Source of the DNA: an uncultured Prevotella sp.
GTDB taxonomy: Bacteria; Bacteroidota; Bacteroidia; Bacteroidales; Bacteroidaceae
DNA length: 12,396 nt
NCBI GenBank assembly: GCA_900557255.1
Contig: USSA01000087.1
Coordinates: 1 to 12,396 of the forward strand
Direction: 5' to 3'
Of the stretch, positions 147-12,396 are shown piece after piece (the stretch's first letter is position 1; the number at the start of each line of letters is the position of its first letter). Position numbers and translations under genes: made by a program. The notes beneath the pieces are model-generated. The model made no database searches. It was not told the DNA's origin and saw only the letters and a list, made by a program, of their open reading frames with translations.

Positions 147-725
147 ATGGAAAATGATATTCTAAAAATTGAGGTTGCCAAACAGGATCTAAAAGAAGCT
201 CCTGAATATTGGGCTTCGGAAAGTTACGAAACCATGATAGGTAAACTGCAAAAGCTTGTTGAAGCGAAAACCGGATATCCGCCATGTCGTAACACCAAAG
301 TCATAAGAGAAGTCAGCTTCAAAATAACATCACGTACAACCCTAGAGCAAATTAGGGAACTACTGAACGACATTGAGAATGATTATAACATATCCTGTTT
401 TCAAATTGCTATTGATAGGGGAAATAATACAGCCCATCTGCTATTTACTTGGATTCATCCGAAAACAGCATTACCTGTAAGGTTTAACAACAAGACTAGG
501 TTCAAGCTGCTATCAGCTTACTTTGTGAGACGTTTACATCTGGAATATCCGAAAGATATGACAGAATGGGTCAGATATTTCATCATGGATGCATATATTG
601 AAGATAAGTCTGTATTTAGTAATGCACTTGCAAGTTTGTCGAAGAAAGAAGACTCAACAGATAAAACGATTTTGGTTGAGTCTCTTCTGTATGCCCAGTA
701 CATGAGTGAAGGAAAAGTTAAATAG
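147..725 (+). CDS. hypothetical protein, 192 aa
   Basis: A complete frame from ATG 147 to TAG 723-725. I do not recognise the family. The protein is soluble-looking, with no signal peptide or membrane helix. The N-terminal half is charged and helical (EYWASESYETMIGKLQKLVE). A mixed alpha/beta middle follows (FQIAIDRGNNTAHLLFTWIH, about residues 85-104), then an aromatic-rich helical region (LSAYFVRRLHLEYP, about 123-136; WVRYFIMDAYIED, about 141-153). It lies 9 bases upstream of the macro-domain gene on the same strand, so the two were probably an operon. The rearranged DNA begins just downstream. Confidence 0.75.
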   Translation: MENDILKIEVAKQDLKEAPEYWASESYETMIGKLQKLVEAKTGYPPCRNTKVIREVSFKITSRTTLEQIRELLNDIENDYNISCFQIAIDRGNNTAHLLFTWIHPKTALPVRFNNKTRFKLLSAYFVRRLHLEYPKDMTEWVRYFIMDAYIEDKSVFSNALASLSKKEDSTDKTILVESLLYAQYMSEGKVK

Positions 726-734
726 ATAAAGAAA

Positions 735-956
735 ATGGATTTGTTAAGTTACCAAAAAGGAGATATCTTGTTTAGTAACTGTCAGACCCTTGTAAACCCA
801 GTATCTTGTGATGGAACCATTGATAGTTACCTGTCAAAGAGGTTCTTCACGAGATACCCAGACATGTATGCCAAGTATTTGTATTTCTGTAAAGAATATG
901 CTGCTTACCATCCCCACTCTCACAAATATACAAGAGAGCTGCTTCGTTCATATTAA
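735..956 (+). pseudogene. truncated macro-domain protein (ADP-ribose-binding type), 5' remnant
   Basis: The first 53 residues match the start of macro domains of the DarG/TARG1-like type: a YxKGDI opening, LVNPVSCDG (residues 19-27), and a conserved block with RYPDMYAKY and CK (residues 40-53). In functional relatives the asparagine of LVN and a glycine-rich GxMGxGxA loop bind ADP-ribose. Here N21 and G27 remain, but the loop reads IDSYLS, so the glycines are lost. After residue 53 the frame runs into the antisense of the convergent DUF6169 gene and stops at residue 73. Whole macro domains are about 150 residues, so this is roughly the first third plus a random tail. No DarT-like partner is visible. 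It is almost certainly inactive. Confidence 0.6.
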
Positions 957-1200
957 AGAAGTTCTCTATGATAAGCATCACCGTATCACGCATTTTCAAG
1001 TCTCGTGGAGAAGGTATTTTATTTACATTGATGATAGAAAAGACATATGATTCTGCATTTTCAATAATGTCATCATCATCAAAGCCAATAGCAAGTACCA
1101 CACCAAAATCACTTTTAAAGCGATAAGTTCGAGACGTTTCATGCCAATAAACCTCATAAGGAGCAGAAGCATTAATTATATCCAAAGGAAGTGGTTTCAT
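847..1200 (-). CDS. DUF6169 family protein, 3' end altered by rearrangement
   Basis: Starts at ATG 1200-1198, overlapping the stop of the 55-aa gene by one base (TAATG), so translation is likely coupled. A TTG two codons earlier is open but less likely. The 117-aa product has the layout I associate with DUF6169: an N-terminal YEVYW...YRFKSDFG beta segment, an acidic DDDDII stretch, then a helix and an ALLYICESGDGKQ block (about residues 88-100). No enzymatic motif is known to me. Residues after about 104 are the antisense of the macro-domain gene, so the native C-terminus, expected to be Arg/Trp-rich, has been replaced. It may therefore be non-functional. A shorter second copy of its start lies at 11478-11636. 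Confidence 0.6.
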   Translation of the reverse strand: MKPLPLDIINASAPYEVYWHETSRTYRFKSDFGVVLAIGFDDDDIIENAESYVFSIINVNKIPSPRDLKMRDTVMLIIENFFNMNEAALLYICESGDGKQHILYRNTNTWHTCLGIS

Positions 1201-1367
1201 TACCAAACATTTATATATTTAGGATATACCCCCGTTCGTTCCTTATATTCCTCACAAAGGCTCTTAGTAATTTCAGCTACACGAGCCTTTTTACGCTCTT
1301 TTGCCGCCATAAATCTTTTCATAGCAGCTTCACGTTTTTCCCAAAATTCTTTATCTAATGTATCCAT
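1200..1367 (-). CDS. 55-aa highly charged helical protein, copy 1
   Basis: ATG at 1367-1365, preceded by a good Shine-Dalgarno (AAGGAG, 9-10 bases upstream). This start is preferred over an in-frame upstream codon because it is conserved in copy 2 and lies downstream of the promoter. The product is dominated by Lys, Arg, Glu and Ala (KREAAMKRFMAAKERKKARV, about residues 12-31) and should form one long amphipathic helix. It ends in a short aromatic tail, VYPKYINVW. No family is recognised. It overlaps DUF6169 by one base. A small charged partner of this kind could be an antitoxin, a regulator or a nucleic-acid-binding factor, but that is inference. The copy at 11636-11803 encodes an identical protein. 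Confidence 0.8.
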   Translation of the reverse strand: MDTLDKEFWEKREAAMKRFMAAKERKKARVAEITKSLCEEYKERTGVYPKYINVW

Positions 1368-1406
1368 AATAGTTCTCCTTTTAAATTCTTTAATTGCAAT
1401 CTGCCG

Positions 1407-1438
1407 CAAAAATACGCTTTTTCCTCGAAACCACCAAG
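1407..1438 (-). promoter_or_regulatory. Bacteroidota-type promoter for the 55-aa/DUF6169 operon, copy 1
   Basis: On the minus strand the -7 box is TATTTTTG (1414-1407), an exact match to TAnnTTTG. A CTTG at 1438-1435 serves as the -33 element with a 20-base spacer. Transcription would start near base 1400, giving a leader of about 30 bases before the ATG at 1367. Both boxes are unchanged in the second copy although bases between and around them have changed. Confidence 0.65.
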
Positions 1439-1514
1439 AAAACCACAAGAAATCTGCAACTCATCAGCGAATTACTACAAAACCAGCACTTCAATAATCC
1501 TATCCACCTTTAGC

Positions 1515-1567
1515 AAGGCGGTCCCAGCCCGCATAACATGGCGCAGACCGCTTTGGTCCGCCAACCT
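1515..1567. other. GC-rich imperfect palindrome next to the RAYT element
   Basis: A patch clearly richer in G+C than its surroundings. GCGGTC at 1518-1523 pairs with GACCGC at 1546-1551, and an outer GGCGG (1517-1521) can instead pair with CCGCC (1558-1562). It sits just outside the left RAYT end, beyond the 3' end of the transposase gene. It could be a transcription terminator without a T-run, a decayed REP hairpin, or a fragment of older sequence. I see no gene in it. Confidence 0.35.
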
Positions 1568-1570
1568 TAA

Positions 1571-1603
1571 GGGGTCACAGGGACAGGTACCTCTGACCCA
1601 CTT
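1571..1603 (+). repeat. REP-like terminal inverted repeat, left end of RAYT element
   Basis: Contains the core CAGGGACAGGTACC and ends in CTGACCCACTT. The outer GGGTCA (1572-1577) pairs with TGACCC (1594-1599). Inverted relative to 2588-2620, with 30 of 33 bases matching. The same CAGGGACAGGT core appears in the ends of the RAYT relic at 6815-7267. Confidence 0.8.
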
Positions 1604-1612
1604 ATTTATATT

Positions 1613-2551
1613 TCAGTATTCTGGGTACTTTTCAAATTCTCCATCATCACAATAGGAATAATAGAGTTCGTCCAGAGGAGAATCTTCACTCACAACTCCT
1701 GTCTGTAATTTTTGTTCGTTTGCTTTGCTTGTAGCGCGCTGCACAACGGAATAAGGTACACCGGTGAGACGCGAAAGCGTTCGGGGGCCTACACCTTGTT
1801 CATGTACCATATAAAGGTAATGCTTCTGTTTCGGACGTTCTAAGGCTTGAAACTCGGTAGCGTTAGTGGCTCCACTGAAAGTTGAAAGAAGTTGCCAGAC
1901 TTCTTCATCGGAAAACCCAGTCCGCTTCGATTTTACATATATATCAAGAAACTCTTGATCTTCCTCATCAGAAAGCAGATCGCCTACGAGACATTGAAGT
2001 TCGCGTAGCGGTATGCGTCTTAGCACGGCGTCTATAGAGGTGAAAGGATGCTGAAGTATGGAATTGTATTCCAACCAACTGCTCCAACGATAGTCCTTGA
2101 GGTCAGTTACGAGATGTGGCTTCAGCGGGTTCTGATGAATATAGCGGAAAAGCTTTAGAAAACAATCCCAGTCGTTGACTGGTTGGCTTTGGAAGCGCTC
2201 CTGAAAGAGATGTCCTATACGGCCATACTTGTGATTGTAATAGTAAACGTATGACGACGAAATACGCTTCATCACATCACCTATGCTTTCATTATGTTCC
2301 TTGAGAAGGAGATGAACATGGTTACCCATAAGGCACCATGCATATATGTAGCAGTGACGTTCTGCAGGTTCGTTTGGTTCTTCGTCGATTTGCGAGGGAC
2401 GGGTACTGACTGCAATTCCGCATTGACGACGGAGAATGCGAACAAAATGTGCATAGTCTTCGTCACACTCAAATATCTGCTGTTTGTTCACTCCTCGAAG
2501 TATGGCATGATATACTCCAGTTCCCGATTCTGTTCGCGCCTGCCTTGACAT
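1613..2551 (-). CDS. REP-associated tyrosine transposase (RAYT, Y1-transposase family)
   Basis: A 312-aa single-strand DNA transposase related to IS200/IS605 TnpA. The N-terminus has the family pattern GxYHxxxRGxNxxxIF (residues 12-27). The metal-binding HUH motif is in LMGNHVHLLL (H78 and H80), and the predicted catalytic tyrosine is Y137 in FRYIHQNP. A long C-terminal extension ends in a helix-turn-helix-like block, RTLSRLTGVPYSVV (about residues 257-270), probably for binding REP hairpins. All key residues are present, so it may be active. RAYTs usually mobilise the short palindromic REP elements that flank them, as here. The ATG at 2551 starts the conserved SRQ...GTGVYH segment. Confidence 0.85.
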   Translation of the reverse strand: MSRQARTESGTGVYHAILRGVNKQQIFECDEDYAHFVRILRRQCGIAVSTRPSQIDEEPNEPAERHCYIYAWCLMGNHVHLLLKEHNESIGDVMKRISSSYVYYYNHKYGRIGHLFQERFQSQPVNDWDCFLKLFRYIHQNPLKPHLVTDLKDYRWSSWLEYNSILQHPFTSIDAVLRRIPLRELQCLVGDLLSDEEDQEFLDIYVKSKRTGFSDEEVWQLLSTFSGATNATEFQALERPKQKHYLYMVHEQGVGPRTLSRLTGVPYSVVQRATSKANEQKLQTGVVSEDSPLDELYYSYCDDGEFEKYPEY

Positions 2552-2587
2552 ACGATGTATAATGAATTAATCAGATTATTAATGATG

Positions 2588-2620
2588 AAGTGGGTCAGCG
2601 GTACCTGTCCCTATGACCCT
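2588..2620 (-). repeat. REP-like terminal inverted repeat, right end of RAYT element
   Basis: Reverse complement of 1571-1603 with three mismatches. GGGTCA and TGACCC flank an inner palindrome centred on GGTACC. The last bases also supply the C-terminal codons and stop of the adjacent small membrane protein frame, so the element has altered the end of that gene. Confidence 0.8.
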
Positions 2621-2970
2621 CTATGACCCTCATCCTGCACGCCAGATTTCTTCATTGAACTTTTCCTAAATAGCACGAACGCATCCATCACTAACATTAT
2701 GACAAAAGTCAATGCAATAATGAACTGTGTAGAGCAGATGTTAAATCCACTATTCCAGAATGGCATCATCGACAGCAAGAGCAACAGCATTTTCGAATAA
2801 GCCAACCACCATGGCAGATATAGTTTTTTGCGTATCCATATAACATAGGGCACAACCGTCACAAGGCATGCAATGCCCTCTGTAATCAGCAGCTTACAGC
2901 AAATTGCATCAGCGTAGCCCAAGAAGGGACACGCCTCCCCTATCTCTGGCATCCAAAACACTAGAAGCAA
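2611..2970 (-). CDS. small multi-pass membrane protein, probably frameshifted at its N-terminus
   Basis: The frame encodes a hydrophobic protein with about three helices: residues 26-46 (LLITEGIACLVTVVPYVIWI), 57-74 and 81-101, each ended by Arg/Lys. No family is recognised. It opens with a TTG at 2970. A better start is the ATG at 2999, 13 bases after the large STAND gene, which begins MKKTLVIFF but stops after 12 codons. One extra base in the A7 run (2952-2990 interval, at about 2972-2978) would join the two frames into one continuous hydrophobic N-terminus. This suggests a frameshift, a slippage-prone switch or a read error. The tail is altered by the RAYT end. By position it belongs to the STAND operon and might be a membrane partner of it. 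Confidence 0.5.
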   Translation of the reverse strand: MLLVFWMPEIGEACPFLGYADAICCKLLITEGIACLVTVVPYVIWIRKKLYLPWWLAYSKMLLLLLSMMPFWNSGFNICSTQFIIALTFVIMLVMDAFVLFRKSSMKKSGVQDEGHRGS

Positions 2971-3012
2971 GAAAAAAATATTACCAAAGTCTTTTTCATA
3001 ACAATTAAACTC

Positions 3013-6000
3013 TTAATCCCCTTCCGGATTCAATGCCCACTGATGGCTGGGCAGTCTGCCAGGAAGCAAAAAGTTCTCCTCCATCTTTTGTGTCTGCCGT
3101 CCGTAATATTTCAGGTGCTCAATTTCAAGCGTTGCCCAATTGTTTACGTCTGGGTTGTTGTGCTTGGTCAGAGGCTCAATCAACGATGCTCTGTCGTTGT
3201 ATGTCGATGCAGGCCCAGCGAACGTGCCGAGTTTGTCACTCAGGGCTGTCCGTACCATTTTCTGACTGCCATAGTTGTCAAGCAGAGCCATCACTGGCTC
3301 CGACAAACCATCTCCATCAATCAATGGAGCCAACGCCATCAGCCTGTAAGGGGCAACGTCGGGGTGGTTCTTACACCAGTCCATCAACACAGGCATATTC
3401 TCCTTCTTGAAAATCAAGCCTGGGAATGGATTATGAAGCGAGGAAAAGCCAAAAGCGAAATAAAACTTTACAAAGTTATCAGCATCATCCTCTGTTGACA
3501 TCAGACCAGCCATCTCCCGCCATGTGATGTCGAAATAGTTCTCAAAAAGCCGCTGCAGTACGGTTTCCACCTCATATCTCAACGTCGTGGAGTCCGAGTT
3601 TACAATATAAGAGAATACGCCCTTTGCCATTGCTCCAGCAAGACCGTCTCGTTTGCCCTTTGTCAACAATGCTCCAAGGATGTGGGAGTACTGCGGATTG
3701 GTGATAAGTTCCGGCACCTTGTCTGCCCGCTTTGCTATCTCACTCTCCATCAGTGCATCCATCTTGTCGTTATTGTGCTGACTGCTCAAATATTGCGACA
3801 TCGCCATGTGCAGACCTATCTCGAATCCGTCTGGCAGCTGCATCACGCGTGCCAACAGGTCAACTCCTTCTGGCGTTGACTGTCTGTCTATACGCACATA
3901 GCTCCAATAACTTACGAACCCTCCCGCTTCAACTTTCTTCTGGGCCACCAACTCAAAGAGCTTATCTACATACGGATGTGTGAAGCCATAATTCCTTATA
4001 GCTACAAGGGAGAAAAGCAACCACTCTTTCTCTTTTGCCTCAATGATAGAAACTATCTGCGCAAACACCTCTTCCGTCACATCCTTCACGTAATAGACGA
4101 AGATGCTGCTCGTTCTCCCCTCCATCAGGTCTATCGAGTCGGAGGCAAATTGCAGCTGCTCTTCTGGAGTGCTCAAAGCCACCAACTTCATCGGGAATGC
4201 GTATGCGAGGAAGGTCTGGCTGTCATATATGTCTTTCAGCAACTCTTTGCTATATAGCTTCTGATTAACCAGGTCATCTGCCAAGGCCTCATACTTCCCA
4301 TCCACTATCTTCTGTCGCTCAAAGTCAGCCATCCCCAAGTAGTCATTCTTCTCAAAACTTTCCACAGCGGCAAAGCGTGATACGAAATCTGTCTTTGTCA
4401 GCTTTTGGATAAGTGCCTCTATCCGCTGCTTGTTTTGAGCGGTTCTCAGTTTTTCTGGGTCTCGCCTTGCAAAATGCAGCACCTTCAACATATCATCCCA
4501 ATCATAGTTCAGCGAGGCAGCAACCTTTTCCACCCGTGGCATCACAGCGTCGAACGACCCGAAAGCGTTCAGCGACCTGAAGTTGGAAACCAGCATTCCG
4601 ATACTCTCATCCTTATACTCTGTGTTGCCGTCTATCTCTTGTTGCAGCAAGTCAAGACATCCGTTGATGTAGTCATCAATCTCTTGGTCGGACTGAGGCT
4701 CGTAGTAGCCATATACCTGAGTACCCACTTTCTGTTTGCCTCCAAAGTGGATAAAGTTTGCTGTGCTCAACGCTCTGCCAAGGGCCTTCATCACCACAGG
4801 CTTCTCTTCCTGACTCTTTATCTCTCTTTGCAGGAATGCAAGTCTCTTTGCAAGCGGCACGGATGTTGAGGGCAACCTGACAGGAAAGAGCGCCACAAAC
4901 TCACCCGTTGCGTTGTTCGATATAAACTCGTTTTCAGCGCAACTCAACCGCAGGAGCAACTTTGCGGCTTTTTGGAACGTCTCTGGCTTATAGCAGAGTT
5001 TCTCCAATGTCCATACCAGCTCCCTGCGTCCATCCCTTATCTCCTTCAATTCGTCTATGCTCAGACCACCAAGGCTCGTATATAGGCTGTCGGCGACAGC
5101 CTCTGGCACCACCTCTATCAGCGAGCGATATATCTTGGAACCCACCTCTGTATTGATAAAATCCCTGAATGTCAGCAGTCTGTTCGGTTGTAGCAACTCC
5201 TTCAGCAAGTCTATCACCCTGCTGTTGTTGTCCATGTCGCGCACCTTTTCAAAGAAGGGCGGAACCAGATTAACGGCCATGCCCACTTGCCCGATGGTTA
5301 TAATGACTTGCTCCAGCTGCTGTGCCGTACACTTGTCAAACCATTCCATTGCCAGCATCTTTGAAATGGCAGGTGAGCGGAAGCGGACAAACACACCTAC
5401 ACGTTGCATCAGGCCACGGTCAAGATATTTCTTGATAAGTGTGTCGAACTTGTTCACCAAGACGGTATCATCCCCATTCAGCCCTGTAATATTCTTGTTC
5501 TTCGCTATTGCCTCTATCTCCTTGTGGGCATCGCCATCGTAACCGATATTCGAGAACAAAGAAAGCGTCTCTGCTATGACGCGCTCTTCACTACCTTCTG
5601 CTGCCGACAGCATATTGGCCATGAGCTTTCGGTCATCGAAGTCTCTCAGGTCGCCCGTCTCTTTGAGACCCTTTATCGCCTGAACAGCAAACAGCGGATT
5701 GCCACAGGCATTGTCTTTTATCCTCGCGCTTACCTCGTCATTCTGACCGTAAAACTTGGCTATAATACCGTCAACCACTTCCTCGTAAGCATCATTAAAC
5801 AACACATATTCGCATCCGTTGCTCGGTGCTACTGTCTCATCACTGATGGCATACAGCCGGTTCTGTGCGTTCTTCCTGCCGTACAGAGTCTTGAGTTTAG
5901 CGAACAAGCCCTCATTACAATTGTCGAGTATCAGTATGGTATTTCCATATTTCTCATAGATTCTGGTCGTGGTGTCTATGACGTACTGTTCCGCTGCCAG

Positions 6001-6801
6001 CAGACAGTCACAATAGAGTTTTGGTGTTTCTTCTGTCTCCTTCAGCACCGTTTCCATCACCAGCCTCGTCTTTCCTACGCCATTCAATCCCAACACCCTC
6101 AAAAGTCCTTTGTTGTCGGAAATGGCTTTTTCCATGTCCTTCAGATTGCCCTTGAAGATAAACTTTCCCTCAAACTGCATTTCCTTGATGGCATCCTCGC
6201 ACCGCTCGTAGGGCAACAATTCTTTATGGATATGTTCCAGTGCAGCCTTGGCAGACTTTTTCAGAGCTGTCTTTAAGTTCTCTGTCAACTCCCTCCTCAC
6301 CTTTTCAGCTTTCGGTCCATCATTGGCTTCCAAATGAAACGTGATGGGTCTGCGCTTGTGCCGAATATCTATTGGTCGCAGATAGTCGTTCTCAGACACA
6401 TCGCCAAACACCGTGTTGGCCACCTGTATCACCTGCCCGTAGTCCAGATGTCCGTCAGCTCTGCCCAACTCATACATCACATTCTCGTTGGGACGTTCTC
6501 TAAGTTCTGGCTTCCTGTTCGCCCACCGCTGCACCTTGTTGAAGTGCTTGTCAACGGAAATGTCAGCTATGAAGATATGGCACTCATCATTTCTCCTCAG
6601 ACAGGTCGCTATCATGTCAGGAGTGCCAGGTTCGCCACCAGTACCCTGTTGCACTCTGAAGGTGATACCCTTCAGAGTGCCCTTGTTTTCTATAGCTATC
6701 ACCGCTTTCTGAATACATTCCAAGATAAACTCCTTGTTGTTGAGTTTATCAGTTTTCGACGATGTCTGCCAAGAAAAAAATATACGTAATTCCATTTTCA
6801 T
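3013..6801 (-). CDS. STAND ATPase with N-terminal TIR-like domain (candidate anti-phage protein)
   Basis: 1262 aa. Residues 4-155 look like a TIR-like NAD-hydrolase/nucleotide-binding domain. They open with LRIFFSWQ, then GEPGTPDMIATCL, CHIFIADIS (residues 74-82) and NENVMYELGRADG (105-117), where E111 would be the catalytic glutamate by analogy with the TIR-like proteins of cyclic-nucleotide defence systems. A P-loop NTPase follows: Walker A GLNGVGKT (238-245, K244), Walker B TILILDNC (288-295, D293) and a GNP motif (367-369), as in STAND/AP-ATPases. Residues from about 450 to the end are an alpha-helical solenoid with HEAT-like units, for example NNPDVNNWATLEIEHL near the C-terminus, likely the ligand sensor. 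The expected action is NAD depletion once a phage product is sensed. The start could be M1 or M3. It is noticeably more GC-rich than the neighbouring Avs-like gene. Confidence 0.8.
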   Translation of the reverse strand: MKMELRIFFSWQTSSKTDKLNNKEFILECIQKAVIAIENKGTLKGITFRVQQGTGGEPGTPDMIATCLRRNDECHIFIADISVDKHFNKVQRWANRKPELRERPNENVMYELGRADGHLDYGQVIQVANTVFGDVSENDYLRPIDIRHKRRPITFHLEANDGPKAEKVRRELTENLKTALKKSAKAALEHIHKELLPYERCEDAIKEMQFEGKFIFKGNLKDMEKAISDNKGLLRVLGLNGVGKTRLVMETVLKETEETPKLYCDCLLAAEQYVIDTTTRIYEKYGNTILILDNCNEGLFAKLKTLYGRKNAQNRLYAISDETVAPSNGCEYVLFNDAYEEVVDGIIAKFYGQNDEVSARIKDNACGNPLFAVQAIKGLKETGDLRDFDDRKLMANMLSAAEGSEERVIAETLSLFSNIGYDGDAHKEIEAIAKNKNITGLNGDDTVLVNKFDTLIKKYLDRGLMQRVGVFVRFRSPAISKMLAMEWFDKCTAQQLEQVIITIGQVGMAVNLVPPFFEKVRDMDNNSRVIDLLKELLQPNRLLTFRDFINTEVGSKIYRSLIEVVPEAVADSLYTSLGGLSIDELKEIRDGRRELVWTLEKLCYKPETFQKAAKLLLRLSCAENEFISNNATGEFVALFPVRLPSTSVPLAKRLAFLQREIKSQEEKPVVMKALGRALSTANFIHFGGKQKVGTQVYGYYEPQSDQEIDDYINGCLDLLQQEIDGNTEYKDESIGMLVSNFRSLNAFGSFDAVMPRVEKVAASLNYDWDDMLKVLHFARRDPEKLRTAQNKQRIEALIQKLTKTDFVSRFAAVESFEKNDYLGMADFERQKIVDGKYEALADDLVNQKLYSKELLKDIYDSQTFLAYAFPMKLVALSTPEEQLQFASDSIDLMEGRTSSIFVYYVKDVTEEVFAQIVSIIEAKEKEWLLFSLVAIRNYGFTHPYVDKLFELVAQKKVEAGGFVSYWSYVRIDRQSTPEGVDLLARVMQLPDGFEIGLHMAMSQYLSSQHNNDKMDALMESEIAKRADKVPELITNPQYSHILGALLTKGKRDGLAGAMAKGVFSYIVNSDSTTLRYEVETVLQRLFENYFDITWREMAGLMSTEDDADNFVKFYFAFGFSSLHNPFPGLIFKKENMPVLMDWCKNHPDVAPYRLMALAPLIDGDGLSEPVMALLDNYGSQKMVRTALSDKLGTFAGPASTYNDRASLIEPLTKHNNPDVNNWATLEIEHLKYYGRQTQKMEENFLLPGRLPSHQWALNPEGD

Positions 6802-6814
6802 AACCCTAAATCTT

Positions 6815-6836
6815 GAAACACAGGGACAGGTTTCTG
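6815..6836 (+). repeat. REP-like end of RAYT relic, left
   Basis: GAAACA, a two-base CA insertion, then GGGACAGGTTTCTG. GAAAC pairs with GTTTC within the unit to give a hairpin. Inverted relative to 7248-7267. It lies 14 bases upstream of the TIR-STAND start codon, so it sits in that gene's leader. Confidence 0.7.
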
Positions 6837-6841
6837 TTGCA

Positions 6842-7213
6842 TCACATACGAAATATCATACTTTTTCCGATTCCGGTCAATCTCTCCAATTGGCGAAATG
6901 ATGCTCTCATACCCTTCAATTCAATCAAAACCGACCGTTTTGTTTCTTTAGGCAATTGCTGAAAGGCACTGCTATTCATTACGCCAGTCTTTTCTTTAAT
7001 CAGTAACATTACCTGATTATCCGAAGGACGGCCTTTCGATGTATCTTCTATATCAAGGCATGCAACATCATCAGACAAAGGAATATTCACAAGGTCATTC
7101 AGTTTATTATATGAATAGTCCTCATGCTCCTCAAAAATGTTTTGATGATTTATACCACGCATCATCACGTGATAGATTCCCGTTCCTGAAGGTTGTCTGG
7201 ATTGCCTTGCCAT
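6842..7213 (-). pseudogene. RAYT transposase with the catalytic core deleted in frame
   Basis: A 123-aa open frame. Residues 1-33 match the N-terminus of the intact RAYT in this window (GTGIYHVMMRGINHQNIF against GTGVYHAILRGVNKQQIF). Residues from about 64 match its C-terminal part (SDNQV against SDEEV, and RQLERLTGI against RTLSRLTGV). About 150 residues between them are gone, including the HUH histidines and the catalytic tyrosine, yet the frame stays open. The product could still bind REP hairpins through the C-terminal helix-turn-helix-like block, but cannot transpose DNA. It may simply be a decaying copy mobilised in trans. Confidence 0.7.
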
Positions 7214-7247
7214 TAACTCGATATTACGTATTCCATTTTATCTGAAA

Positions 7248-7267
7248 CAGAAACCTGTCCCTGTTTC
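7248..7267 (-). repeat. REP-like end of RAYT relic, right
   Basis: CAGAAACCTGTCCCTGTTTC, the reverse complement of the left end without its two-base insertion. It lies 32 bases downstream of the stop of the Avs-like gene. Confidence 0.7.
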
Positions 7268-7299
7268 TTTATAATCTAATCTTGATATCTATAACCATT

Positions 7300-10200
7300 T
7301 TACTGCAAGAAATCTTTAAAATCATAGTCTTCTTCTGCCAACATTCTTAAATGTTCCTCCACCGAAACTTTTACCAGCCCCTTTTCCACCAGTTTCTTCT
7401 TAACCTGATACAAGGACCTACGTATGGCAAACATAACACTATTACGCTTCTTTTGAAATGCGGTAAGTTCATAGGTGCGTATTTTGTGCCTAATCTTACC
7501 TTTTTCGTCCATCCAAGCATATCCACCTACTTGTATACTTGGCCAATAAGTTCCTTCTGGTTTATACGTCCGTTCCATCAGTATGGGCCATACAAGACTC
7601 TTACCCGTCTCATGCAAATACTGTAGCAGCAAATCTTTTCTGACAAACAACCCTGCATGACCACCATAAACCCAAAAACTATCATAGCATGCCACCGAGC
7701 CGTCTGGAGCAAGCCACACACCATCAGCAACGGAGAATCTCAGATTAAGCTCATCAAACAAGAAGGGTGATGGCAATATCATTTCACGTGAGCTGCCCAC
7801 AGAATAGTCCGCATCCGAACTGATGTCATATAGCAAGTAAGATGGTTGTACCTTAAACGATGTGCTACTACTTCCTGTTTCATATTCTCTATTGATATAG
7901 TCTTGACCCTCTATTTGGGTCTTGTAGCTATCCGCCCAATAATACTCTCGGTAATAACTATAGCTTGCTTCATGATTTTCAGTACCGCTACGACCACCCA
8001 AGCCGTCTCTGTCTATTAGAGAACACATCCCTTCCCGATGAATACTATCTACAAAAAATGATTGTGCGAAAGCCCACAATTCTCTCTCCGTTGGATATTT
8101 ATCTTCTTCCGAAAGCGATGAAATTGAATAGTATGCATACAGGCATATCCACTCTCTATTATCATCCCCTTTATAAATTAAATAATCTTTAAGGGATGGA
8201 ATCTTCTTCCAATCCAACATCCATTTCCGATTGTCACCTCCTGATATATCATACTCTGGAACCTTGTAAGCAGGGATGCTAGTCGTAAAGTCCCTCACAT
8301 CAGGATTCATCATAATGGTAGGGTCAAACCGTCGCAAATGGTAAATCGTGGGTGACTTCCAATCCCTGTCGAGTGGTTCTCCAAAATGGTTGTCTTCCAG
8401 AATAGCGGCTATTTTGTACAGTACAATCCATTCATATTTCTTTCCTATTCGCTCTATCTTATTTCCATGCCGCTCCCAACTGGCGTGTTGACCATCAAAT
8501 ACTTTAAATAATTGCGCATCATACCCAAAGTCCTCAAAAATCGTTTTTATTCCATAATTGGATATTTCCTCTATATCGTCTTTCCAATTATCCAATGCAC
8601 TTTGAAAAACATAGCGGCCAAAATCTCCATACATTCCCCTGCTGCTATATTCGGTACACATCGAGTCAAGAATATTGTTCTGAGCCGTTATAAGCTGTGT
8701 GTCACCATCTTTATCGAATGGTAGTTTGTATTTTAGTATTTCTTCCGTCTCAACATACACATTCTTCTTCGTCTTGCAGTAAGGAGGGCACACTTTCTCG
8801 CTATCATATTTTAATGCACATCCTATGGAAACAGCATAATCCACAATACACTTGGCGAAGTCTCTTGTCAGTATATCCTCTGGAGGATTGCCGGCTTTAA
8901 AAGTTTCGTCGTAAATCAATTGTGCGATTTTCTCTACATACATTCCGCTGGCATTACCTGTGCAACACCCAAAAACAACTGCATATACCCGTTCTACAAT
9001 ATAGGGGTCATCAACCTTTACAAAGGTACTGATAAAATCAAGTATCAACTCCTGCTCATTCTTCAAAATATTGATGAGGGCTCTGCTTGACTTATCGCGT
9101 AGTTCAATATATGTGGTAGATAACGTCCATGCCAACAGATGAACAATATTCCTTAGACAGCCCTTCTCTATGCTGCCGATAATTGATGGCGAAGCAGACC
9201 AACCCCATTTGGCCAAAGCCATCAAAGGATTGTAAAGTTCTGTCTCCCCTGAGATTAACTGTGTCCACATCTCATCCCTCTCCACCATTCTCATCGGCAA
9301 AAGAAGGGTGTCAAGCTTCTCTACCGTAATCGGCAAGTCATTCCTGAATGGATTATTTACAACAACCCTGAAGAAATTGTAATAGTCACCCTCTTCCAGC
9401 AAACTGTTTAAAAGATTGGCTCCTCCATCTGTTATAGTAGAGCGTGATGAAAGTGTATTTATGAACAAATCTTTCAGATAATCTGCATATGCCTCATCAT
9501 CTGATAATAACTCAAACAATTCCTTTCCCCTATATAATGGAACAAGATCGGTCAACGCCTCCAGTTCTGATTCCGAACCATAAGTGAGATCCTTGTATGA
9601 TTCATCTTTCGCTATTGCCACCCCTTTCATGTAAGCACCAATCGTATCGTATCCGAAAGAATAACTGACACCATTGTCGCTTTCATATTCGTTCAATATG
9701 CCCTCATCTACAAGGGCATCCAGAAAAAGGCCTTGCTTTTTATCAATCTCAGGGAATCTATTTAATATATCTTCAATAACATTTCGCTCAACAAACCACC
9801 TACCTTTTGTCTTAACTATTGCTTCGCTTATCAGGCCAAGAGCGTTTTGAACCAACGGGGTCAAGCTCGAATACTTAAAAGTTTCTGCCAAGCGGCCATT
9901 AAAATGGCCAAGATAGTTCTTGATAATGTCAAGTTTGCTCTCAAAACGAGGGGCAAGTTTTTCACCAGAGTGAGTCCTGCAAAACAGGGTCAACAACATC
10001 GGATTAGTAAACTCTCTTTGAAACAACGGCCATGTTGGAAGAGGAACGTCAAATGCCCTGAACATATATTCCACAGCTCCTGCAGCATTCTGCTCGAAAC
10101 CAGTATGTCTGTATGAGGGGAACTGATGCTGCTGCTCTATGAACTTACTGAACCAGTTATGGCTGCTATTAGTTCTTACAGACAGAATCAGAGATATATT

Positions 10201-11442
10201 CTTATACTCACTGAACTCATTGATAAAACTTAGAAGGTGGTTTTTCCATAAAGACAGTCCCTTGCCTTCATTGATACCATCTATTACTATCAGCACCCTA
10301 CCATGCTTGAGGCCATAGTCATCCAAAGCTTTCAGGAATAATTCCTTTTTGCTGTGTACGTCAAGAATCGTTGCTATTTGAGATAACGGGTTACTTGTAT
10401 CCGTTATTAATTTACCCAAGAAGAAAATGGTTGGCAATCCTAGCTTAATTCGTTCATCCGACAGTTTTGCAAGCAAATGAGTCTTTCCGCATCCTCCTTG
10501 TCCTGTAATGATAAATGTCTGATTTGAAATGCTGGCTATCCAAGGATTCTCGCATCGTTCTCTGATTTTCCCTACAGCCGAGTGCAGTTGAGTGTATCTG
10601 TAGTCGCCATAACTCAGTTTTCCCGTAGTTATCGCCTCCATCAGAATATTGTCTATCTCGTCTGCATCCTTGAGTGTCCTTTCCAGTTCTGAGCCTTCAA
10701 ATTGCGTCTTGCTTGTCAACTTCTGAATTTCCTTGATGAGTATCTCTATCTTCTCAATACTTTCTGTTCCAATAGACTTCTCAAGAATCTCCTTACCTCT
10801 TCTATAATCAGATGCCAGAGTTCTCACGTCTGGTGCGAAAACTTTGGCCACACGACTATCTCTACATGTTGATGCAAGTGCTTCGTCGAAATACTCGTAT
10901 GAGAAGTTTATCTCCAAGTCGTATGCCTTTCCTAAATCTTTTATTGCCTTCTTAGTCTTTAGTCGAAACCATTCCTGATTTGGGGTAAAATTAAAATTAT
11001 CATTGATAATCGCAGATGCAGTAGCCAATATGTCTGCCTTGTATCTCTTAGTCCTGCTATTCAGATAGGCTGTGTAAGCTATCGTTAATAATAAAACTAA
11101 ACTTATAACAGCCCATGCAGGAAGGCCATTGTCATACAGAAGTTCAATGCCGTATCTGGCATCGCCTTTCTTTACCGTGATTATACCCTTCGCAAATGAA
11201 AGCAACGTGTTACCTCCAGCAACACAGATCACTGCCCTCATATATGCCTTGTGTGCGGCATTCAGACTTCTATTTTCCAAAAAGCGTTTAACTGCCTCTG
11301 TCATTTCTTTTCGGTCCATAGATGTGCCCTTTTGGACACTTTTTATCGCGCCCTTTATCAAGGTGAGGTCAAACCAAAACACAACAATCACCCCCAAGGC
11401 GATTGTTACGACCAATATGATAAATAAAATTGCTAAAGACAT
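7300..11442 (-). CDS. Avs-like STAND ATPase with N-terminal membrane anchor
   Basis: 1380 aa. Residues 3-25 are a strong transmembrane helix and 108-127 a second, with a possible weak one near 68-90, so the effector end is membrane-bound. Residues 165-200 (IKDLGKAYDLEINFSY) resemble the segment before the ATPase in AVAST (Avs) proteins. The NTPase has Walker A GQGGCGKT (314-321, K320), Walker B with the acidic DGINEG motif (388-393), a SVRT sensor (421-424) and FTNPMLL (478-484). The rest is a helical sensor with HEAT/TPR-like units (LRDKSSRALINIL, 781-793) and an ERIGKKYEWIVLYKIAAIL block (997-1015) that I associate with Avs proteins. Avs proteins bind conserved phage proteins such as terminase or portal and then activate the effector. 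Here that would be membrane damage. No promoter is evident just upstream, so read-through from the copy-2 operon is likely. Confidence 0.75.
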   Translation of the reverse strand: MSLAILFIILVVTIALGVIVVFWFDLTLIKGAIKSVQKGTSMDRKEMTEAVKRFLENRSLNAAHKAYMRAVICVAGGNTLLSFAKGIITVKKGDARYGIELLYDNGLPAWAVISLVLLLTIAYTAYLNSRTKRYKADILATASAIINDNFNFTPNQEWFRLKTKKAIKDLGKAYDLEINFSYEYFDEALASTCRDSRVAKVFAPDVRTLASDYRRGKEILEKSIGTESIEKIEILIKEIQKLTSKTQFEGSELERTLKDADEIDNILMEAITTGKLSYGDYRYTQLHSAVGKIRERCENPWIASISNQTFIITGQGGCGKTHLLAKLSDERIKLGLPTIFFLGKLITDTSNPLSQIATILDVHSKKELFLKALDDYGLKHGRVLIVIDGINEGKGLSLWKNHLLSFINEFSEYKNISLILSVRTNSSHNWFSKFIEQQHQFPSYRHTGFEQNAAGAVEYMFRAFDVPLPTWPLFQREFTNPMLLTLFCRTHSGEKLAPRFESKLDIIKNYLGHFNGRLAETFKYSSLTPLVQNALGLISEAIVKTKGRWFVERNVIEDILNRFPEIDKKQGLFLDALVDEGILNEYESDNGVSYSFGYDTIGAYMKGVAIAKDESYKDLTYGSESELEALTDLVPLYRGKELFELLSDDEAYADYLKDLFINTLSSRSTITDGGANLLNSLLEEGDYYNFFRVVVNNPFRNDLPITVEKLDTLLLPMRMVERDEMWTQLISGETELYNPLMALAKWGWSASPSIIGSIEKGCLRNIVHLLAWTLSTTYIELRDKSSRALINILKNEQELILDFISTFVKVDDPYIVERVYAVVFGCCTGNASGMYVEKIAQLIYDETFKAGNPPEDILTRDFAKCIVDYAVSIGCALKYDSEKVCPPYCKTKKNVYVETEEILKYKLPFDKDGDTQLITAQNNILDSMCTEYSSRGMYGDFGRYVFQSALDNWKDDIEEISNYGIKTIFEDFGYDAQLFKVFDGQHASWERHGNKIERIGKKYEWIVLYKIAAILEDNHFGEPLDRDWKSPTIYHLRRFDPTIMMNPDVRDFTTSIPAYKVPEYDISGGDNRKWMLDWKKIPSLKDYLIYKGDDNREWICLYAYYSISSLSEEDKYPTERELWAFAQSFFVDSIHREGMCSLIDRDGLGGRSGTENHEASYSYYREYYWADSYKTQIEGQDYINREYETGSSSTSFKVQPSYLLYDISSDADYSVGSSREMILPSPFLFDELNLRFSVADGVWLAPDGSVACYDSFWVYGGHAGLFVRKDLLLQYLHETGKSLVWPILMERTYKPEGTYWPSIQVGGYAWMDEKGKIRHKIRTYELTAFQKKRNSVMFAIRRSLYQVKKKLVEKGLVKVSVEEHLRMLAEEDYDFKDFLQ

Positions 11443-11477
11443 CGTCGTTCTATTATTAAACTATATTCTTTTTCCCT

Positions 11478-11636
11478 TTACTTCAGTAACCATCTATATT
11501 TCCACACACCCTCTGAACCGCCTTTATTTACAGGCGATTCACAATCACTTTTAAAGCGATAAGTTCGAGACTTTTCATGCCAATAAACCTCATAAGGAGC
11601 AGAAGCATTAATTATATCCAAAGAAAGTGGTTTCAT
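11478..11636 (-). pseudogene. DUF6169 5' fragment with chimeric tail, copy 2
   Basis: Starts at ATG 11636-11634, overlapping the 55-aa stop by one base exactly as in copy 1. The first 31 codons match copy 1 with two amino-acid changes (Pro5 to Ser, Thr22 to Lys). At 11543 the similarity stops, and 21 unrelated codons lead to TAA at 11478-11480. The Avs-like ATG follows 35 bases later. The fragment lacks most of the domain, so it is probably a leader-like relic, though its translation could still help ribosomes reach the Avs-like start. Confidence 0.75.
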
Positions 11637-11803
11637 TACCAAACATTTATATATTTAGGATATACTCCCGTGCGCTCCTTATATTCCTCACAAAGGCTCT
11701 TAGTGATTTCGGCTACACGAGCCTTTTTACGTTCTTTAGCTGCCATAAATCTTTTCATAGCTGCTTCACGTTTTTCCCAAAATTCTTTATCCAATGTATC
11801 CAT
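11636..11803 (-). CDS. 55-aa highly charged helical protein, copy 2
   Basis: ATG at 11803-11801. The predicted protein is identical residue for residue to the one at 1200-1367, although ten codons differ. The Shine-Dalgarno seen in copy 1 (AGGAG) is replaced by AAAAAG here, so initiation may be weaker. It overlaps the DUF6169 fragment by one base and heads the probable transcript that runs into the Avs-like gene. This position suggests the small protein could act on expression or activity of the STAND genes, but that is inference. Confidence 0.8.
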   Translation of the reverse strand: MDTLDKEFWEKREAAMKRFMAAKERKKARVAEITKSLCEEYKERTGVYPKYINVW

Positions 11804-11842
11804 AACAGTTCTTTTTTAAAATTCTTTGATTGTAATCTGCCG

Positions 11843-11874
11843 CAAAAATACACTTTTTCTTCGAAACCACCAAG
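11843..11874 (-). promoter_or_regulatory. Bacteroidota-type promoter, copy 2; probable promoter of the STAND operon
   Basis: TATTTTTG (11850-11843) and CTTG (11874-11871) with a 20-base spacer, unchanged from copy 1. Everything downstream on the minus strand, from the 55-aa gene through the Avs-like gene, is closely spaced with no intervening hairpin plus T-run that I can see. The weak CGCCT/AGGCG hairpin at 11519-11536 is the only candidate attenuator. Confidence 0.65.
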
Positions 11875-11921
11875 AAAATCGCAACAAATCTGCAAGTTAT
11901 CAGCGAATTACCAGCAAATCC

Positions 11922-12023
11922 CCCGAATATAAACTGCTGAACTTTCGCATGTGGTTCAAGAACGAGCTGAAGACCCAAAAGCTCCAGAAGCTTCTGCCCT
12001 TTACCTTTCCCTTCGGCCGGTGA
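11922..12023 (+). pseudogene. possible 3' remnant of an unrecognised gene
   Basis: A plus-strand frame reads PEYKLLNFRMWFKNELKTQK and ends QKLLPFTFPFGR, with TGA at 12021-12023. Its codons (AAC, GAG, CTG, AAG, ACC, CTC, CAG) are GC-ending and look like a well-expressed coding gene, unlike the AT-rich surroundings. It starts right where the direct repeat ends, and a strong terminator follows 60 bases later on the same strand. This fits the surviving end of a gene cut by the rearrangement. An internal ATG at 11949 could alternatively give a 24-aa peptide. Confidence 0.35.
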
Positions 12024-12083
12024 CCGTTGGTTCAGGGCGTGTGGGGCATAAACTTGCGAAACGTCGAAAACATTACGATATCT

Positions 12084-12120: not shown

Positions 12121-12126
12121 TAAAAG

Positions 12127-12342
12127 AACGCCTAAAAAGGCAAAAAATAGCAAAATAGAGCATTTGGTTTGAGTTTCAAGTGGTTGTGGCAGTCGTTGGC
12201 TTTAGTTGGCAGTGATAAGGAAATGAGGAAAAAGCAGATTAGAGAAATAGAAACGCTTTCAAATCATTACCCAATGGAAACGCCCTAATAAGCATTTTTA
12301 ACGGTGGCGGTTCAATCTTCTCCATTCTGCGTAAGTTTTGGT
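12127..12342. other. AT-rich intergenic stretch
   Basis: No convincing gene. A 21-codon frame (MRKKQIREIETLSNHYPMET..., ATG 12223 to TAA 12288) has an AAGGA just before its ATG but no other support. A small GCCT/AGGC hairpin lies at 12131-12140. The stretch probably holds the leader and control region for the gene to the right of the window. Confidence 0.4.
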
Positions 12343-12373
12343 TTTGCCATGCAACTCTCATAGTTTAATTTTG
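12343..12373 (+). promoter_or_regulatory. Bacteroidota-type promoter reading out of the window
   Basis: TTTG at 12343-12346, a 19-base spacer, then TAATTTTG at 12366-12373, which fits TAnnTTTG exactly. Transcription should begin near 12380 and serve a plus-strand gene beyond the right edge. Confidence 0.65.
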
Positions 12374-12396
12374 CACCGAACAAAAAAGTAAGAATT

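Follow-up and report, generated by a model that had tools for sequence, protein, structure and literature searches.

The stretch analysed here, referred to as the window, comprises the 12,396 nucleotides (nt) of contig USSA01000087.1 from an uncultured Prevotella sp. (assembly GCA_900557255.1). It carries two giant genes resembling defence genes of the STAND class (signal transduction ATPases with numerous domains), bracketed by a long direct repeat that was found to contain the start of a small operon. The present analysis concerns this repeat, the short promoter-like leader with which it begins and the way in which the defence genes may have come to lie between its two copies.

The repeat copies and the 55-residue/DUF6169 operon

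A repeat search detected one family of long direct repeats in the window, at 1104-1403 and 11540-11839 (spacing 10,436, 94% identity). It was extended with blastn to 1104-1474 and 11540-11911, i.e. to 372 nt at 93.0% identity (E 4.7e-161), a match far exceeding what chance would produce. The copies are in direct orientation with a start-to-start offset of 10,436. On the minus strand, each of them contains in the same order a leader, a gene coding for a protein of 55 residues and the start of a gene with a DUF6169 domain. All genes lying between the copies are on the minus strand. The features of the bracket and the two giant genes are the following:

1104..1474, minus strand: repeat copy 1, with leader, 55-residue gene and DUF6169 start (repeat search and blastn against copy 2)
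11540..11911, minus strand: repeat copy 2, with leader, 55-residue gene and DUF6169 stub (repeat search and blastn)
1400..1474, minus strand: leader core of copy 1, about 75 nt, 92% identical to the leader query, with 29 nt from core end to ATG
11836..11910, minus strand: leader core of copy 2, matched by the leader query
1200..1367, minus strand: 55-residue gene of copy 1, whose TAA overlaps the DUF6169 ATG (TAATG)
11636..11803, minus strand: 55-residue gene of copy 2, taken from the open reading frame (ORF) list
847..1206, minus strand: DUF6169 gene of copy 1, cut short at about residue 101, where it passes into a DarG-like remnant (PF19666, 32.6 bits over 46 of 92 positions)
11478..11642, minus strand: DUF6169 stub of copy 2, about 35 native residues, with its end some 35 nt upstream of the start codon of the Avs2-like gene
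7300..11442, minus strand: Avs2-like STAND gene, 1380 residues (PADLOC Avs2, PDLC02164, E 2.8e-185)
3013..6801, minus strand: PD-Lambda-4_A-like STAND gene, 1262 residues (PADLOC, E 4.2e-30, residues 218-1231)

The 55-residue protein has the same sequence in both copies. The DUF6169 gene is broken in both, at differing points: in copy 1, homology to the intact gene of a related genome (G048) ends at about position 896, and in copy 2 the stub alone is left. Over 382 aligned nt the copies show 31 differences, which are scattered along the whole length, so that they are separate alleles; the longest exact run common to both is 51 nt. Copy 1 is 96.9% identical to the corresponding block of G048 and 97.7% identical to that of a faecal contig (L001), whereas copy 2 is only about 92% identical to either of them and to copy 1. 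A fresh duplication of the block is thereby ruled out. The scar of a single crossover inside the block was sought by eye, and the scattered differences neither show nor exclude a crossover at the block edges.

The original prediction, drawn from the letters of the window, had described a block of promoter, 55-residue gene and DUF6169 start at both edges in direct orientation, had judged that its copies were no fresh duplication but more probably came from two related loci and that the two giant genes were STAND genes, and had asked whether the block lies beside other genes in related genomes. These points agree with the results given here, to which the breakage of DUF6169 in both copies is added, and the block was indeed seen beside other genes in G048, in a second genome (G045) and in L001. 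Both genomes were reached through a Prevotella contig in the genome collection. In G048, the block contains an intact DUF6169 gene and is 97.4% identical to window positions 896-1482; transposase-like genes (by eye) and a further leader are found nearby. In L001, the block has an intact DUF6169 gene and a shortened first gene (42 residues), with a PDC-M62/Ptu-like pair and a large LmuA-like protein downstream. In G045, the leader and the 55-residue gene stand within an array of other modules, the DUF6169 gene being broken near its start. The neighbours differ in each of the five contexts (two in the window and one each in G048, G045 and L001). The L001 record (MT836892) is a faecal 'phage' entry marked unverified that looks bacterial, and at L001:7564-8246 its block adjoins a split glycosyltransferase-like gene (by eye).

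At all 14 of the other Bacteroidales loci inspected, DUF6169 has a small ORF upstream, whose relatedness to the 55-residue gene was judged by eye. Since this short, related-looking ORF recurs at all of them, the pair is a conserved two-gene operon with the small gene first. By its appearance the pair would be a toxin-antitoxin (TA) system. It resembles type II TA modules (VapBC, SocA/PemK-like, GNAT pairs) in having a small first gene and a larger second one, and several neighbours behind the same leader match TA components; it differs from them in that no description of DUF6169 activity was found in the literature searched. A GNAT fold for DUF6169 is only a lead, for which the support is consistent but middling. 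As to the host, DUF6169 relatives and plasmid matches point to Segatella copri or its close kin. Among the matches listed, 31 of 120 DUF6169 relatives diverge from the full-length protein, according to a crude script whose count includes small indels, contig ends and a probable chimera. One match (P0092) is fused to an unrelated oxidoreductase, probably in a chimeric contig. Viral contigs yielded no DUF6169, no leader pattern and no match to the 55-residue protein, and plasmids yielded no match to the 55-residue protein. A 50-residue relative of that protein (by eye) is found at L101:11635-11787, where it adjoins a PIN-like gene (by eye) without an obvious DUF6169.

A leader common to several kinds of module

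The part of the block that recurs before other genes is its first 75 nt or so only. In copy 1 this leader contains TTGG-N19-TATTTTTG, which we take to be a Bacteroidota-type promoter motif, and the leader probably acts as a promoter. Nineteen copies were collected: four in G048, ten in G045, one in L001, one in each of two plasmids of S. copri DSM 18205 and the two of the window, which holds no others. The counts in genus genomes are lower bounds, only two to three candidates per genome having been scored in the scoring searches. The leader pattern with up to three mismatches matches 2 of 398 sampled genomes, themselves a draw from a larger genus, and a reversed control pattern matches none. 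A weaker leader-like match in G219 (85%), with the next same-strand ORF about 240 nt further on, was left out of the 19. An Rfam scan of the window and of loci L061 and L060 gave no match. No description of a shared leader of this kind was found in the titles and abstract beginnings of the top-ranked literature matches.

The leaders occur in co-oriented arrays. In G045, six of six are co-oriented within 5.7 kb on one contig and four of four on another; in G048, three of three are co-oriented within 7 kb and the fourth is far away. Successive leaders are 0.6-2.0 kb apart in the arrays of G045, where C19 also has one gap of 9.7 kb; the spacings in G048 are 1.2 and 5.6 kb. An ATG lies 18-29 nt beyond the core in 16 of the 19 copies. 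The first genes behind these 16 are of seven kinds, small or antitoxin-like: the 55-residue gene (five leaders), a gene of 51-58 residues (four), a RelB-like gene by eye (three) and, at one leader each, a gene accompanied by a VapC/PIN toxin, a SocA/Panacea gene accompanied by a PemK-like gene, a gene accompanied by a PIN_3 toxin and an unnamed 50-residue gene. 'RelB-like', 'VapB-like' and '51-aa antitoxin' are our own labels. PIN, PIN_3 and SocA_Panacea pass their Pfam cut-offs in genes behind leaders, and PemK and GNAT fall just below theirs in the proteins scanned. Against NCBIfam models, the PIN_3 protein scores above the cut-off of TIGR00305 (a putative toxin family); the matches of the other PIN protein to VapC models stay below cut-off. 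Among the four modules with a first gene of 51-58 residues, a GNAT gene is annotated by RefSeq in one and matched just under the cut-off in another; in a third, the short ORF behind the first gene (L100:6353-6661) has no Pfam match. Four first genes without a recognised partner domain of their own matched no family: those at L060:15318-15521, L061:10797-11075 and L101:9902-10135 in Pfam and NCBIfam, and that at L102:8106-8261 in NCBIfam alone.

One of the leaders is a recombinant. The leader of DSM 18205 plasmid 1 (L103) is chimeric: its left arm is 96% identical over 208 nt to the 3' end of the PemK-like gene and the leader of G045, and its right arm is 94% identical over 174 nt to the G048 leader and module with a PIN_3-toxin partner. 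The changeover point falls inside the leader, and the right-hand module is itself broken off. On one side of this leader are Gabija genes (GajA, E 1.4e-205; GajB, E 4e-206), on the other a DUF2971 + NACHT pair (L103:4064-14276). As in the window, a leader followed by a module remnant is therefore found at a joint between defence genes. Window copy 1 shows a similar changeover, being the G048 block with one difference from promoter to DUF6169 start while its upstream side differs.

The 171 possible pairs of leaders were compared on either side of the core, with thresholds slightly higher than the top values obtained from 171 shuffled pairs. Sixteen pairs share the downstream 80 nt only, 38 the upstream 60 nt only, two share both and 115 neither. 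The stretch from core to start codon tracks the module (mean identity 0.66 versus 0.39-0.40), the upstream 40 nt track the site (0.59 versus 0.48) and the core clearly tracks neither (0.79-0.83). A hairpin-like element (by eye) lies at 1516-1569, immediately upstream of copy 1; it recurs several times close to other leaders and within long ORFs of G048.

Cargo and flanks

The two giant proteins resemble Avs2 (AVAST type 2) and PD-Lambda-4 in that profiles match over most of their length. The first matches Avs2 models over the STAND core (PDLC02162 covers residues 156-1322). It departs from known Avs2 in scoring 557.9 bits with the NCBIfam equivalog, under the curated cut-off of 1000, and in being only 27% identical to its best-ranked plasmid relative and 32% to the nearest protein in the 398 genus genomes. 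Avs2-like genes occur in seven of these genomes at E <= 1e-40, G048 and G045 not being among them. The N-terminus of the Avs2-like protein of the window is hydrophobic and, by eye, may be a membrane effector. As regards the second, only an A-like PD-Lambda-4 gene was found in the window; the _A label leads one to suspect a further component, and the neighbouring small ORF (2611-2970) has no PADLOC match. No PD-Lambda-4-like gene was found in G048 or G045 in a search that had no positive control. Residues 97-127 (6421-6513) of this protein show a sub-threshold match to the TIR/CAP12 effector domain PF10137. The remaining features are the following:

1613..2551, minus strand: REP-associated Y1 transposase (RAYT; REP, repetitive extragenic palindromic), PF01797 over its cut-off and NF047646 below, with 32-nt inverted ends at 1572-1603 and 2588-2619
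6842..7213, minus strand: internally deleted RAYT relative with 22-nt inverted ends at 6820-6841 and 7243-7264, its kinship to 1613-2551 being judged by eye from the N-terminus without a supporting family match
735..956, plus strand: DarG-like antitoxin remnant, N-terminal 50 residues or so only (NF048014, E 1.4e-5, 24.5 bits versus a cut-off of 250, profile positions 2-51 of 338)
147..725, plus strand: 192-residue gene with distant relatives (28-39% identity) in 16 of the 398 genus genomes, absent from G048 and G045
12122..12396, strand not assigned: integrase-side end of an element resembling integrative mobilizable elements (IMEs), 87% identical to G045 C15:42651-42377, where the sequence runs into the ATG of an integrase

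The segments 1572-2619 and 6820-7264 look like an autonomous and a non-autonomous RAYT element. On the left, the truncated DarG-like gene is joined tail to tail with the truncated DUF6169 gene of copy 1. The 192-residue gene is probably a backbone gene of a mobile element; at six loci of its relatives inspected by eye, a toprim-like gene is the neighbour in three and a ParA-like gene in one. On the right, two short sequences at 11937-12061 recur dozens of times at scattered places in G048 and G045 and possibly form a REP-like family. The element of G045 is about 8 kb long, encodes a tyrosine integrase (PF00589, PF13102, PF17293) together with Mob_Pre and toprim genes and sits in an alkyltransferase-like gene split in two (by eye). 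Presumably it is a mobilizable element of the type of nonreplicating Bacteroides units (NBUs) and IMEs, and the right flank of the window matches its integrase end. By analogy, the element would extend rightward from 12122, with an integrase ATG expected immediately past position 12396 and the island outside; so far as can be seen from the window, the island is adjacent to it and not part of it. The window is a mosaic rich in mobile elements.

How the defence genes may have come to lie between two leaders

The account that we lean towards, and hold to be somewhat on the probable side, is that the shared leader serves as a seam at which modules are swapped and that the window contains one oversized leader-to-leader unit. 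The bracketing block would be a decayed TA-like operon, the 55-residue gene and DUF6169, behind its promoter-like leader. In S. copri-like bacteria this leader would be common to many unrelated small modules set head to tail in co-oriented arrays, and recombination within it would exchange the flanking DNA on either side, because near-identical leaders recur. Ordinary homologous recombination would suffice for the swapping and is its likely agent. In this way the Avs2-like and PD-Lambda-4-like genes of the 10,436-bp stretch would have ended up behind a leader and what remains of a module. At its simplest, DNA bearing one allele and the defence cargo would have encountered a module of the other allele already in place; alternatively, two such modules would have been joined. 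Were copies 1 and 2 to recombine with each other, 10,436 bp would be lost and a single hybrid block would remain; with 51 nt as the longest identical run, this would probably happen at a low rate. The Avs2-like gene may be transcribed from the leader of copy 2, given that it starts about 35 nt after the stub.

The idea in the original prediction that recombination takes place at a small operon is upheld in part. Leaders do recur at both ends of modules and one plasmid leader is a recombinant. The key repeat is nevertheless the leader of about 75 nt, common to at least seven kinds of operon, and not the DUF6169 operon, and neither a second bracket nor a circle was shown. The same prediction saw no integrase; none lies inside the window, which is probably an edge effect, as the window ends where the integrase ATG would be expected after the match at 12122-12396.

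Several observations weigh against the leader as a seam. The arrays occur in just two sampled genomes, a small sample. The units between leaders are mostly short, the 9.7-kb gap of G045 C19 being the lone other one near 10.4 kb, and at 3 of the 19 leaders a clear first gene is missing, the gene being truncated and antitoxin-like at one and broken or unclear at the other two. The 171 leader pairs are not independent. The commonest upstream type is largely the upstream extension of the leader itself, so that such pairs say little about a seam; by pattern, this extension is found at four of four G048 leaders, two of ten G045 leaders and three weaker matches elsewhere in G048. For these two reasons the seam is argued from DSM 18205 plasmid 1, window copy 1 and the G045 arrays. 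This cargo was not found between two leaders in any other genome, and no circular form was shown. The predicted empty site, with a single block and both window flanks, was likewise not found: the gene on the left has distant relatives only and the right flank matches G045 at a different site.

Selection on the leader as a promoter or operator could also keep it alike without any swapping. A shared regulator would then hold it constant, and modules acquired separately would have converged on this promoter or kept it. The near-fixed position of the leader before its first genes and a core about 80% identical regardless of module or site speak for such a regulon. The sharp changeover inside the plasmid 1 leader does not, nor does the near-identity of the copy 1 block to that of G048 next to an upstream side that differs. 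We regard this explanation, which is compatible with a seam, as rather doubtful. Chance would be the alternative if two independently decaying copies of a common module happened to flank defence genes in mobile debris, the bracket having no function. In favour of chance debris are the differing breakpoints of the two DUF6169 copies, the divergence from full length, by the crude script, of a quarter or so of the DUF6169 relatives listed, and the presence in or next to the island of a truncated DarG-like gene, of a deleted RAYT relative and of dispersed repeats; nor was a second example of the bracket found. The co-oriented leader brackets recurring in G045 and G048 and the visible recombinant leader speak against it. 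Such debris is a tenable explanation, although we do not expect it to be the right one.

The mobile elements of the window offer two further routes. The island may have arrived as cargo of an integrase-driven element, whose end would be the right edge and whose probable backbone gene would lie in the left flank. This accords with the match of 12122-12396 to an integrase-side element end and with the toprim- and ParA-like genes adjoining some relatives of the 192-residue gene. By the G045 comparison, the element occupies the DNA rightward of 12122 and leaves the island out, and its end falls elsewhere than the 372-nt repeats. This route is unlikely. No transposase or integrase lies at the bracket edges, where the repeats encode only the 55-residue protein and the DUF6169 start, which distinguishes the locus from a composite transposon or an integrase-borne island. 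A role of the RAYT/REP elements in moving or shaping the island is very improbable: the bracket does enclose two RAYT-type elements with inverted ends, but these ends do not coincide with its edges, and transport of 10-kb cargo is not known for RAYTs.

The arrays that support the leader as a seam recall Vibrio-type chromosomal integrons in their co-oriented small genes, TA genes included, and in the short recurring element that marks exchange points. Chromosomal integron arrays are known to contain toxin-antitoxin genes. The recurring element differs here in looking like a promoter before each module, by its motif and position. The array of V. cholerae is described as made up mostly of promoterless cassettes (PMC3948777). 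In both array-bearing genomes the integron integrase IntI (TIGR02249) stayed below its cut-off, with 88.8 bits at best against 265, and none of 14 control genomes passed either.

In its broadest form, which we put forward tentatively and consider less than probable, S. copri-like bacteria would possess an integrase-free cassette platform: a TA promoter would double as a homology site at which modules, occasionally STAND genes, are inserted or swapped under a ready-made promoter, and the 55-residue/DUF6169 pair would be an undescribed GNAT-like TA module. If true, exchange of defence and TA genes in a major human gut bacterium would need no dedicated recombinase, the shared promoter being both landing site and switch. 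The 75-nt leader would offer a handle for listing unrecognised defence and TA modules in Segatella, and the 55-residue/DUF6169 operon is flagged as a conserved Bacteroidales pair and a candidate toxin-antitoxin system.

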